A stretch of DNA of 64,000 bases from Angustibacter luteus. GTDB lineage: Bacteria; Actinomycetota; Actinomycetes; Actinomycetales; Angustibacteraceae. A program made the position numbers and the translations under genes. Shown here piece after piece: positions 53,290 to 61,064 of the stretch. Each line of letters starts with the position of its first letter. Position 1 is the stretch's first letter. The notes beneath the pieces were generated by a model, which was not told the DNA's origin, did not search any database, and was given only the letters and a program-made list of their open reading frames with translations. Where the stretch lies: positions 310,001 through 374,000 of the forward strand of contig NZ_BAABFP010000002.1 of NCBI RefSeq assembly GCF_039541115.1. The letters run 5' to 3'.

Positions 53290-53302
53290 CCCCCACCCTC
53301 CC

Positions 53303-53354
53303 CGGTGATCATGCACGTTCGCCCCGTCGCGGGGGCGAACGTGCATGATCACCG
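53303..53354. terminator. full palindromic copy of the recurring motif; bidirectional terminator
   Basis: Two perfect 23-bp arms (53303-53325 and 53332-53354) and a 6-base loop lie between converging mctP and the YihY-like gene. The right arm holds the core GGGCGAACGTGCATGATCAC, also found at 6126 and 54632. Its position suits transcription termination in both directions. Confidence 0.8.
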
Positions 53355-53376
53355 CGGGTTGGCGGGACGGGTGGGG

Positions 53377-55819: not shown

Positions 55820-57121
55820 CTACTCCACGCGGGTGACGACCCGGGTCAGCGCCGACACGACCCGAGGGTCGTACTCGTAGGCCAGTCCGAGGTGGATCCG
55901 CTCGAGCGCCTCGCGTCGCCGGCTCTCCGTGCCACCGTCCCCGACGAGGTCGTCGTAGGCGTTCGCGGCCTTGATGATCCGGCTGCCCAGCGGGACGGCG
56001 CGGTCATCGGTCTGGTGGTGACGGCGGTACGGCTCGCACTGGCGCTCGATCATGTCGGCGACGTCGTTCAGCACGCCGGTCCGGCGGACCACGTCGGCCC
56101 CCAGGTCGGCGATCCGGCGCTGCTCCATCGGGGCGGCCATCACGGTCGCCCCGCCGGGGATGGGCTCGCTGAGCGACAGCTGCCCGATGTCGTGCAGCAG
56201 CGCGGCGTACTCCAGGTCGCGCAGCGAGCGCTCGACCATGCCGAGGTCGCGGCCCATGGCCAGCGCCAGCGACGCCACCCGTCGCGAGTGCCCGGTCTCG
56301 GTGTAGCCGCCGAGCTCGGTGACCCGGGACAGCGACCGGATGGTCTGGTTGTAGGTCTCCTGGATCGTGGAGTACCGGCGGAACGCGAACTGGGTGAGCA
56401 GCAGCGGCGCCAGGAACACCGGCACGGCCAGCAGACCCATCGGCTCGGCGGCGAGGGCGATCAGCACCCCACCGCAGCCGATCGCGCTGCCCAGGGCGGA
56501 GTTGAACCGCAGCTCGTCGACCAGGACGGACTTGAGCCGGGCGTTCTCGTCGCCGGCGCGCATGGTGGCGGCCAGGATCGCGTCGAACGCCAACGAGACG
56601 GCCACCGCGAGCAGCATCAGCACCGCCAGGAACGACCGGTTGCCGACCCAGGCGCGACCGGCCTCGGCGACCGAGCCGTGCTCGGTGAACGGGATGACCC
56701 GCCAGATCACGGTGAGCAGCGTGATCGCCAGGAACCGGTGCACCAGCCCGGCCAGCTCCGGCGGCCGACCGGCGAGCAGGTGCGGCAGGATGCCCACGAC
56801 GGTGGCGAGGGCGACGACGGCGATCACGGTCGCCGGGTCCACGGACCCGCCGTGCGAGGGACCGACGTTGGTGGTCAGCACGAACGCCACGGCCGCGGCG
56901 GTGCCGATCGGCGCCGCCTCGCGGTCGCCCGGCAGCCACACCCGCAGCGCCTCCCCCAGCGCGATCGCTGCGGCGAAGACCACCACGACATCGACGTTGT
57001 GCGCGCCGCGCTGGGTCAGGCCGGCCGCGGACGCCCCGACCGCCGCGGCCGCGACCATGGCGGCCAGGCAGCTGAAGGCCCAGGTGAGGGACAGCCGCGG
57101 TCCGTTGGGTCCGAGGGTCAT
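55820..57121 (-). CDS. membrane HD-domain protein, degenerate HD-GYP
   Basis: A 433-residue protein: about eight helices (to 265), then an HD domain with HSRRVASLALAMG and HDIGQLSLSEP (His-Asp near 309-310). The later part reads IERQCEPYRRHHQ where HD-GYP proteins have HHExxDGxGYP, so the GYP signature is lost. It may have no c-di-GMP phosphodiesterase activity and instead sense a ligand. ATG at 57121 overlaps the HD-GYP gene before it (ATGA); the longer frame is antisense. Confidence 0.85.
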   Translation of the reverse strand: MTLGPNGPRLSLTWAFSCLAAMVAAAAVGASAAGLTQRGAHNVDVVVVFAAAIALGEALRVWLPGDREAAPIGTAAAVAFVLTTNVGPSHGGSVDPATVIAVVALATVVGILPHLLAGRPPELAGLVHRFLAITLLTVIWRVIPFTEHGSVAEAGRAWVGNRSFLAVLMLLAVAVSLAFDAILAATMRAGDENARLKSVLVDELRFNSALGSAIGCGGVLIALAAEPMGLLAVPVFLAPLLLTQFAFRRYSTIQETYNQTIRSLSRVTELGGYTETGHSRRVASLALAMGRDLGMVERSLRDLEYAALLHDIGQLSLSEPIPGGATVMAAPMEQRRIADLGADVVRRTGVLNDVADMIERQCEPYRRHHQTDDRAVPLGSRIIKAANAYDDLVGDGGTESRRREALERIHLGLAYEYDPRVVSALTRVVTRVE

Positions 57122-58554: not shown

Positions 58555-58629
58555 TTGGCTCCCTCGTGATGGGCCAGAGTGCGTGAGGGAGACCGGCGGC
58601 TGGGGCGAACGAGTCGTTTAGCTCGTCGG

Positions 58630-58701
58630 TCAGCCGTTCATCCAGGTCCAGCCGGGCTGGGAGGAAAGGAACTTCTCGACTGCGGACACGATCTTGCTCA
58701 C
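58630..58701 (-). CDS. 23-residue peptide ORF inside the inverted-repeat element
   Basis: A GTG at 58701 is preceded by AAGGAG at 9 bases and opens 23 codons. The peptide starts MSKIVSAVEKFLSSQ and ends PGWTWMNG. The first 14 residues would form an amphipathic helix; the end holds two Trp. The ORF lies 75 bases upstream of the HD-GYP gene on the same strand. I recognise no family. A signalling or membrane-active peptide is one possibility; the SD is the main evidence for translation. Confidence 0.55.
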   Translation of the reverse strand: MSKIVSAVEKFLSSQPGWTWMNG

Positions 58702-58778
58702 GGGACACCACTCCTTGATCGGGTCGTCACGAGGCCGCTATTCCCCGCGCGCACTCCGCTCCGCTCTGGAAATGGACC

Positions 58779-58815
58779 TACCGGACAAACATACAGGGGT
58801 GACGTTTGTCCGGTA
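58779..58815. promoter_or_regulatory. perfect 12-bp inverted repeat, probable operator
   Basis: TACCGGACAAAC (58779-58790) and GTTTGTCCGGTA (58804-58815) are exact complements around 13 bases. The site lies about 78 bases before the peptide ORF (minus strand) and 225 bases before the plus-strand gene at 59041, so it may control divergent transcription. The arm length suits a dimeric regulator. No regulator gene lies next to it. Confidence 0.6.
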
Positions 58816-59040
58816 AAGCACCGCCGGTCTCCTTCACGCACTCTGGAGTTGTTCTGGTCTCGCTCGGCGGATGCTATCCGCCGATCCGCTCCGGGAGCCG
58901 CATGTCGCGCGGTCCGTGGACGCGTCGTTGCTCCGTTCGAGTGAACCAGAGGCTCACCCTGAGCGACATTCGACCCAAGAGTCACGCTGCGCAGCCGGGT
59001 GCCGACTACGTTCTGTGGTGACCGACCCCGAGGGAGCGAG

Positions 59041-59694
59041 ATGACGTCGTTGCGGCTACGGCCCGAGTTGGAGGACGTCCTGCGCACGGTGCCGGGCATC
59101 CAGGCAGTCAGCGTGGTGACCACCCCGGACGGCGCGCCCATCGAGGTGCACGTGCTGGCCGACCAGGGCAAGCCCGCCAAGCAGGTGGTCCGCGACGTCC
59201 AGTCCATCGCCATGACCGCGTTCGACCTCGACCTCGACCGGAAGATCGTCAGCGTCGTCCAGGTGGGCGAGGCGCCCTCCGCCACCCCGCTGCAGCTCGT
59301 TCCCGAACCGCCGGAGCCGACGGTCCGGCCCGTCGTGCAGCGGGTGAGCGTGAGCACCGAGCCCGGCAGCTCGGCGGCGGCGGTGACGGTGCGGATCGGC
59401 GACGACGAGTTCAGCGGCGAGGTGACCGGCGCCCCCACCACCGCCGCGCGCTCGCGGATGGTCGCCGAGGCGACCGTCCAGGCGGTCGGTGAGCTGCTCG
59501 GCGCCGGCTGCGAGGTGGAGTCCGCCCAGCTGCTGCGGGCCGGTGCGCACGACGTCGCCGTCGTCGTCGTGGCGCTGCAGGTCCCCCGGGTCGGTGAGCA
59601 GCTGCTCACCGGCAGCGCCCTCGTGCGCACCTACCCGGACGACGCGGTCGTGCGGGCCGTGCTCGATGCGCTGAATCGGCACCTGGCGGGCTGA
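59041..59694 (+). CDS. hypothetical two-domain protein
   Basis: A 217-residue soluble protein. The N-terminal half (VLRTVPGIQAVSVVTTPDG, EVHVLADQGKPAKQVVRDVQ) looks like a small alpha/beta domain; after a Pro-rich linker (about 85-100) the second half (VRIGDDEFSGEVTG, SRMVAEATVQAVGELL) resembles another alpha/beta domain. It has no signal or membrane segment. ATG at 59041 has GGGAGCG upstream. I do not recognise it; homologues may be confined to actinobacteria. Confidence 0.8.
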   Translation: MTSLRLRPELEDVLRTVPGIQAVSVVTTPDGAPIEVHVLADQGKPAKQVVRDVQSIAMTAFDLDLDRKIVSVVQVGEAPSATPLQLVPEPPEPTVRPVVQRVSVSTEPGSSAAAVTVRIGDDEFSGEVTGAPTTAARSRMVAEATVQAVGELLGAGCEVESAQLLRAGAHDVAVVVVALQVPRVGEQLLTGSALVRTYPDDAVVRAVLDALNRHLAG

Positions 59695-59925: not shown

Positions 59926-60192
59926 TCAGGCGTCGTACTGGATCCGCACCTGGGTGATCCGGGTGAGCACGCGGGTGCGCAGCTCGTCGGGCGCCGCCTC
60001 GCACGCGCAGCTGCGCCGGATCAGCGCCTTGAGCGCCTGGTCGAGGTCGTACTCCTGCAGGCAGGGCCCGCACTCCTCGAGGTGCTGCTTGATCTTCGCG
60101 CAGTCCAGCTCGGCCATCTCGTCGTCGAGGTACTCGAAGACGCGGTCGAGGACCTCACGGCAGTCCGTCTCGTGGTGGTTCCCGCAGCTCAC
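59926..60192 (-). CDS. rsrA: zinc-binding anti-sigma factor RsrA
   Basis: An 88-residue ZAS-family protein. It has Cys3, Cys11, Cys31, His37, Cys41 and Cys44, the last three in HLEECGPC; Cys11, His37, Cys41 and Cys44 match the numbering of the Streptomyces RsrA zinc/redox site. Under disulfide stress it loses zinc and frees SigR. It overlaps sigR by 4 bases. Confidence 0.95.
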
Positions 60193-60848
60193 GACTCGCC
60201 TCCGCCAGGCCTTCCGGCGGCCACCAGGCCGCGCTCACGTGCGTAGTCCGTCAGCAGCTCGCGCAGCTGTCGCCGCCCACGGTGCAGGCGAGACATCACG
60301 GTGCCGATCGGCGTACCCATGATCTCCGCGATCTCCTTGTAGGCAAAGCCCTCCACGTCGGCGTAGTACACCGCCATGCGGAAGTCCTCGGGGATCTGCT
60401 GCAGCGCGTCCTTGACGTCGCTGTCCGGCAGGTGGTCCAACGCCTCGGCCTCGGCCGAGCGCAGGCCACGCGAGGTGTGCGACTCGGCGCGCGCCAGCTG
60501 GTAGTCCTCGATGTTCTCGGCATCGGACTGCTGGGGCTCACGCTGCTTCTTGCGGTACGTGTTGATGTAGGTGTTCGTCAGGATCCGGTACAGCCACGCC
60601 TTGAGGTTCGTGCCCGGGCGGTACTGGTGGAACGCGGCGAACGCCTTGGCGAACGTCTCCTGCACGAGGTCCTCGGCGTCGGCCGGGTTGCGGGTCATCC
60701 GCAGGGCCGCCGAGTAGAGCTGGTCCAGGTACTGCATCGCGTCCCGCTCGAAGCGCTCGGTGCGGTCCTGGGCGCTCTCGGTCTCGGGCGCACGGGTGGT
60801 GTCGTCGGCGTCCTCGGCCCCGGCCGGGGTCTGGCTGGTCTCTGTCAT
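60189..60848 (-). CDS. sigR: ECF sigma factor SigR (thiol-oxidative stress)
   Basis: A 219-residue group IV sigma factor: region 2 [30 protein letters not shown] (ends quoted: [10 protein letters not shown] and [11 protein letters not shown]), region 2.4 [20 protein letters not shown], region 4 [20 protein letters not shown] and [20 protein letters not shown]. It drives thioredoxin, mycothiol and protease genes in relatives. ATG 60848 starts the conserved part but has a weak Shine-Dalgarno; TTG 61004, with GGGAGGA at 6 bases, adds 52 residues in frame. A GGAAT-N18-GTT promoter lies upstream. Confidence 0.95.
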
Positions 60849-61064
60849 CGCTGACCAGGGTATCGCCGTCTGGACCTCGGACCTGACCGTCGTCCGCTTG
60901 CGTGACGCGGTTGAGGCTGGGCCCGCGGCCGGGGTCGACGCCCCGGAAGTCCAACGGCCGAGCGCCGGTCCGTCCAGCGCGCGGTCAGCTGCAGCAGTGA
61001 GCAACGCGAATCCTCCCGATCGAGTGGGTGACGACCTGCCGGTCGTCGGCCCGTCGGTGGTGAG

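Follow-up and report, generated by a model that had tools for sequence, protein, structure and literature searches.

The window analysed here, a stretch of 64,000 nucleotides from Angustibacter luteus, comprises on its minus strand two adjacent genes for membrane proteins of the HD-GYP type and, in front of them, a compact leader element (Table 1). HdgA consists of an N-terminal membrane domain and a cytoplasmic, C-terminal HD-GYP domain of the c-di-GMP phosphodiesterase type, in which the HD and HHExxDGxGYP motifs are present, while the start of hdgB overlaps the end of hdgA by ATGA. Both genes are homologues of Streptomyces hdgA-hdgB (vnz24090-vnz24095), which encode a 6TM-HD-GYP protein and a 6TM protein with a degenerate HD-GYP domain (PMC6205966); HdgA is homologous by sequence, and in both cases the second of the two genes encodes a degenerate protein. 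Read along the minus strand, the leader comprises a 5' arm that is preceded by a conserved ACAACT, followed by an inner hairpin, a micropeptide gene of 23 codons (MSKIVSAVEKFLSSQPGWTWMNG) located between the arms, and a 3' arm shortly before hdgA. The 3' arm contains CTCCCTC, which is complementary to the Shine-Dalgarno sequence of hdgA. A scan for sigma-70 promoters and terminators found nothing; candidate -10 boxes ahead of the 5' arm were seen by eye only. On the other side, the leader is adjoined by a divergent gene for a protein of 217 aa without Pfam match. A gene that appears similar by eye occupies the same place in a second genus of the family (G002) and in G004, not in the sister species (G001).

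Table 1. Features of the hdgA locus and its surroundings, in window coordinates, with the basis of each assignment.
Feature	Position	Strand	Basis
hdgB, second membrane HD protein, degenerate HD-GYP	55820..57121	-	ORF; Pfam HD_5 4.9e-11
hdgA, membrane HD-GYP protein, 478 aa	57118..58554	-	Pfam HD_5 1.3e-40
hdgA Shine-Dalgarno sequence GAGGGAG	58559..58565	-	read from sequence
3' arm of the long-range RNA stem, CCGCCGGTCTCCCTCACGCACTCTGG	58574..58599	-	25/26 complementary to 5' arm
Micropeptide gene, 23 aa, GTG start, VSKIVSAVEKFLSSQPGWTWMNG*	58630..58701	-	translation and conservation
R1 hairpin motif, AGCGGAGCGGA - stem - loop AGCGG - stem - GUGAC	58706..58769	-	covariance model
Inner hairpin, 12-bp perfect arms TACCGGACAAAC/GTTTGTCCGGTA (halves 58779-58790 and 58804-58815)	58779..58815	-	inverted-repeat match
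5' arm of the long-range RNA stem, CCAGAGTGCGTGAAGGAGACCGGCGG	58821..58846	-	25/26 complementary to 3' arm
Divergent 217-aa gene	59041..59694	+	
SigR/RsrA-like pair	59926..61004	-	
Separate 26-nt inverted repeat, 25/26, arms 6 nt apart	53300..53357		

An initial annotation had described a 273-bp element whose 26-nt ends, 221 nt apart, are reverse complements of each other at 25 of 26 bases, far beyond chance. The ends were found as described. Inverted repeats of 26 nt that match at 25 or more positions within 300 nt were absent from three Markov resamplings of the window; the window itself contains two, the arms discussed here and a short-spaced one at 53300, which is probably a terminator hairpin. 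A short ORF with a Shine-Dalgarno sequence, its strand not stated, and a perfect 12-bp inverted repeat had been placed inside the element, and both are there, the ORF on the minus strand with AAGGAG upstream. The inner hairpin belongs to the variable, unconserved part of the leader, as one of its halves is altered in the sister species. Three origins had been considered for the element. The first, a miniature inverted-repeat element (MITE) that brought in a promoter and the peptide gene, would suit the terminal inverted ends, yet a copy search of the genome returned a single copy, and in many families the element is found at the corresponding site in front of hdgA. Its single copy, its orthologous position and arms that differ between species yet stay complementary refute the MITE, to which we give practically no probability.

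The second origin, a folded leader of the HD-GYP operon, was strongly borne out by comparison. Orthologues of hdgA were gathered from the order, from named genomes and, at the level of the class, from 122 of 395 genomes, and their upstream regions were read. The arms, for which independent drift in relatives had been considered, differ in sequence between species and keep their complementarity. In the second genus of the family, arms of another sequence than those of the window (CCAGATCGCGTGACGGGGACCGGCGA and TCGCCGGTCCCCGTCACGTGATCTGG) pair at 26 of 26 positions with one G-U pair, while the stem of the sister species is less regular and bulged, judged by eye and by duplex prediction. Gapless arm pairs were located in 33 leaders, 31 of them distinct; their consensus is about GCAGAGNGCGNGANCGGGATCGGCAGC with its partner, and ACAACT precedes the 5' arm in most leaders. 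The long stem was scored by gapless arm matching and pair counts in place of duplex-energy z-scores, which are noisy because duplexfold extends over everything. Over the 31 distinct leaders 90.8% of the cells are paired, a percentage that is inflated because the arms were chosen for best pairing; as a control for this choice, arms pair at 23.5 of 26 positions within a locus and at 19.4 of 26 across loci. Compensatory, double-sided changes were detected at 21 of the 26 pairs of the same leaders, and the 134 cells with such changes compare with 44 in shuffles, none of 500 shuffles reaching the observed value. If the arm alignment is slid, the pairing signal collapses. Folding of whole putative leaders placed the long-range stem in the minimum-energy structure of the window genome and of the second genus, and imperfectly in that of G004. 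Judged from this covariation across many families, the arms are shown to be the two halves of one long-range RNA stem, which has the peptide gene inside it and stops shortly upstream of the hdgA start.

The same data bear on the third origin, a pair of regulator-bound sites that forms a DNA loop, and on the related idea of an invertible DNA switch for phase variation. Long inverted arms about 220 bp apart on either side of a gene would suit both. However, the peptide gene has one and the same orientation in every genome examined, and the frequent mismatch retained at columns 14-15 of the stem, the G-U pairs and the covariation fit RNA pairing rather than recombination or a fixed protein site. 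Compensatory changes between arms at such a distance are not predicted by a pair of regulator sites either, and we consider switch and loop alike very improbable.

Beyond the initial annotation, the comparison revealed a second hairpin, the conservation of the peptide and a phylum-wide distribution. Leaders with peptides of what we call class A carry, between the 5' arm and the Shine-Dalgarno sequence of the peptide, the motif R1 (AGCGGAGCGGA, a GC-stem, AGCGG, and the closing stem with GUGAC), which ends at that Shine-Dalgarno sequence. Its 7-bp stem is paired to 98% in 35 sequences, with double-sided changes at six of the seven pairs and a covariation score matched by none of 500 shuffles. 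A covariance model built from these 35 sequences, the window genome among them, found the window locus with an E value of 1.9e-10 in its own genome and of 1.2e-11 over the set of loci. The model matches 45 of the 395 genomes of the class, nearly always once per genome. The strong matches are the hdgA loci already read, and wherever checked, R1 lies at hdgA with one weak exception, a match in G332 within an apparent coding region where no HD-GYP gene was seen nearby; the few weak extra matches of this kind look like chance. Four more distant genomes of the phylum carry R1, then a short gene with a Trp tail, then an hdgA-like membrane-protein gene. R1 thus shows up, on comparative grounds, as a second conserved hairpin motif in the loop of the long stem, directly before the ribosome-binding site of the peptide. 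The sister species, in which stem and peptide are kept, gave no match to the R1 model. Rfam yielded no match above chance in the leader of the window and none at E<=1 in eight relatives. A covarying structured domain in a 5' leader, as expected of a riboswitch, is present without correspondence to a known Rfam class, and this strongly covarying leader RNA seems to represent a family not described before.

The micropeptide is conserved before hdgA within the genus, the family and other families. It precedes the same HD-GYP gene in the sister species (MSKIVSAVEKFLSAQPHWTWEG) and in the second genus of the family (MSTIVSAVEKFLAPQAGWTWGKP). If all upstream regions are considered, two classes of short genes emerge. 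Class A, to which the window peptide belongs, comprises about 20-25 codons (e.g., MKKIVTAVEQFLQSGANWKW, MKKITAAVERMLSAEAAWSWR, MSKLVSAVERFLSSGAGWSWH), while in class B the N-terminal part is hydrophobic or absent and the peptide ends in a short Trp-containing tail such as PPGVSWT (Nonomuraea), PGISWT (Streptosporangium), NGWSWW (Nocardiopsis) or TGWTWW (Thermobifida fusca). In Acrocarpospora the entire peptide is MSTAHPGISWT, and tail-only forms of 9-16 aa without a helix occur in Streptosporangium, Acrocarpospora and Sporichthya. An ORF led by a Shine-Dalgarno sequence and with Trp among its last five residues was found in 71 of the 74 hdgA upstream regions outside the Streptomyces-like genomes, compared to 15.8% of dinucleotide shuffles and 7 of 74 regions on the reverse strand. 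Codons that differ by a single change among class-A relatives comprise 117 synonymous and 88 nonsynonymous changes against 60.3 and 144.7 expected (ratio about 0.31, from pairs that are not independent), so that the peptide is, as far as codon changes tell, under purifying selection. Nearly all lineages keep the Trp-containing tail, the conserved short C-terminal part that would be expected of a pheromone. These comparisons show that the peptide gene is real and conserved, and that this short tail varies least. Pfam and NCBIfam searches with the peptides gave nothing above curated cut-offs, the sub-threshold matches being chance-like (SP_0009 family, E 0.09), and a search of an open-access library found no paper that describes the peptide or the leader RNA. 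Taken together, we are almost certain that the locus holds a conserved folded leader and a real micropeptide gene.

The forms of the peptide vary considerably. Most possess a hydrophobic or amphipathic N-terminal helix, and signal-like N-termini occur in G502, G510, G816, G167, G065 and Nonomuraea; in the first three, which are distant R1-bearing genomes, the peptides resemble signal peptides (e.g., MKKSFVRVTLLVSSAAALLLSGGAGMGWK). In class-A peptides such as that of the window no signal sequence is evident, as their hydrophobicity peaks at about 1. In three genomes (G019, G107, UBA4719) the tail occurs in tandem, reading RGWGWGG, RGWEWRG or TWHWNP, each twice. Peptides of 50-53 aa with tandem Trp tails are present at the loci L017, L018 and L044. 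Three Sporichthya-like loci (L132, L135, L138) carry a pair of short ORFs in a row ahead of hdgA, first MGKLRSVxEQFLSAGSTAKWE and then the 9-codon MREENWKWG, and lack the R1 hairpin.

The protein encoded downstream offers a candidate partner. In comparisons by Foldseek and VIA-align, an AlphaFold2 model of HdgA (pLDDT 84) matches HD-GYP structures and, over residues 4-210, the S-components of ECF transporters from several ligand families, with Z 10-14 and an rmsd of about 3-4 A. The membrane domain of HdgA is therefore predicted to adopt an ECF S-component fold, a likeness of fold only because it concerns a helical bundle. S-components bind small ligands from outside, a property that does not follow for HdgA from the fold alone. 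In contrast to the ECF S-components that it resembles in predicted fold (NikM, RibU, BioY, ThiT, FolT), the HdgA domain is fused to an HD-GYP domain and shares with them a sequence identity of only about 9-18%.

These observations are best explained by an operon of micropeptide, hdgA and hdgB of which the element is the folded leader RNA. The Trp-containing tail would be the active part of the peptide; exported or presented at the membrane, it would bind the membrane domain of HdgA as a ligand and adjust the breakdown of c-di-GMP, so that a peptide signal and its receptor would be encoded side by side. The leader RNA would couple the translation of peptide and hdgA, with the R1 hairpin acting on the ribosome-binding site of the peptide and the long stem controlling whether that of hdgA is exposed or hidden. 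A peptide that serves as ligand of HdgA is the best reading because of the signal-like and tandem forms, the constant short tail and the receptor-like neighbour, and we put the probability of the full mechanism slightly below one half (about 0.48). For the action of the stem there is weak support in silico: the long stem raises the accessibility of the hdgA Shine-Dalgarno sequence in 12 of 15 leaders, with a reversed effect in the second genus of the family and in L144, a tie in one leader and a slight effect in the window (0.61 vs 0.57). As class-A peptides show no evident signal sequence and peptides of 9-16 aa consist of the tail without a leader part, export would not be general, and no exporter or protease gene was identified for the peptide. 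Short Trp-containing pheromones are known from the ComS/XIP system of streptococci, in which XIP acts on a cytoplasmic Rgg regulator. The locus shares with it a small precursor, a conserved C-terminal Trp tail and an adjoining gene for a presumed receptor, but the protein encoded next to it is membrane-bound and joins an S-component-like domain to an HD-GYP domain.

The main rival of this peptide-ligand reading is attenuation by a leader peptide, Trp-dependent or by an arrest peptide: the progress or stalling of the ribosome at the Trp end would switch the leader RNA and with it hdgA translation, and the peptide would have no function afterwards. Sensory leader peptides such as SpeFL and TnaC are encoded by short ORFs in structured leaders and control the downstream operon. 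The locus resembles them in that a short upstream ORF sits within structured RNA of the inferred transcript, its conserved residues adjoin the stop codon, and its length of 20-23 aa is one often seen in leader peptides, with minimal forms of 9-16 aa; moreover, the S-component-like domain of HdgA could sense a metabolite instead of the peptide. It differs from SpeFL and TnaC in its signal-like and tandem forms, its loose downstream spacing and the long-range stem around the ORF. The distance from the peptide stop codon to the 3' arm ranges from 6 to 73 nt across leaders, not the fixed spacing of stop and helix expected from attenuation, while the 3' arm is kept 18-36 nt from the hdgA start in 14 of 15 measured leaders (9 nt in the second genus). 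The spacing behind the stop codon is too loose for a switch operated by the ribosome footprint. Furthermore, many peptides contain a single Trp codon, attenuation has no need for tandem tails or signal-like N-termini, and the tail persists in class-B peptides even though the class-B leaders searched gave no R1 match. On balance we consider attenuation rather unlikely. Another possibility is that the peptide acts within the cell, as a microprotein at the membrane that binds to HdgA or HdgB as subunit or inhibitor, without any intercellular signal. The N-terminal helix of most forms and the strict linkage to a membrane-protein gene would fit this, but the tail-only forms have no helix, and the tandem repeats of the tail argue against it as well; it seems less probable than attenuation.

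The peptide-ligand reading might be extended to a phylum-wide system, in which a gene-encoded Trp-tailed peptide is sensed by an S-component-like receptor fused directly to a c-di-GMP phosphodiesterase, and the production of both is coupled by a new class of structured leader RNA whose long-range stem is wrapped around the peptide gene; this generalisation is tentative, and we hold it possible rather than probable. The micropeptide is a concrete, testable candidate for an input signal of actinobacterial membrane c-di-GMP phosphodiesterases. The system would have gone unseen because its peptides fall below the usual length limits of annotation.

Some lineages possess hdgA without the peptide, which counts against the peptide-ligand reading. 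At four Herbidospora loci (L051, L057, L089, L093) hdgA is kept and the peptide gene lost, apparently via a small deletion near the gene start. Streptomyces-like genomes differ from the window locus in that 9 of 10 hdgA upstream regions lack an ORF with a Trp tail (one has it) and the covariance-model search gave no R1 match. A comparison of whether the HdgA membrane domain relaxes once the peptide is lost gave no uniform picture: it has lost N104, N157 and other residues in Streptomyces-like proteins, but in peptide losses of the Herbidospora type 97% was kept. Streptomyces HdgA and HdgB are membrane-bound and their mutants show no developmental phenotype, for which the authors suspect missing activating signals (PMC6205966); poor expression and again no phenotype were reported in 2026 (PMC13232838). 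The locus of these phenotype-less mutants seems to have lost the peptide. As to the wider surroundings, the SigR/RsrA-like pair of the window comprises an ECF sigma factor and a zinc-finger anti-sigma factor; hdgA follows such a pair in several genomes and stands directly after rsrA in Streptomyces-like genomes.
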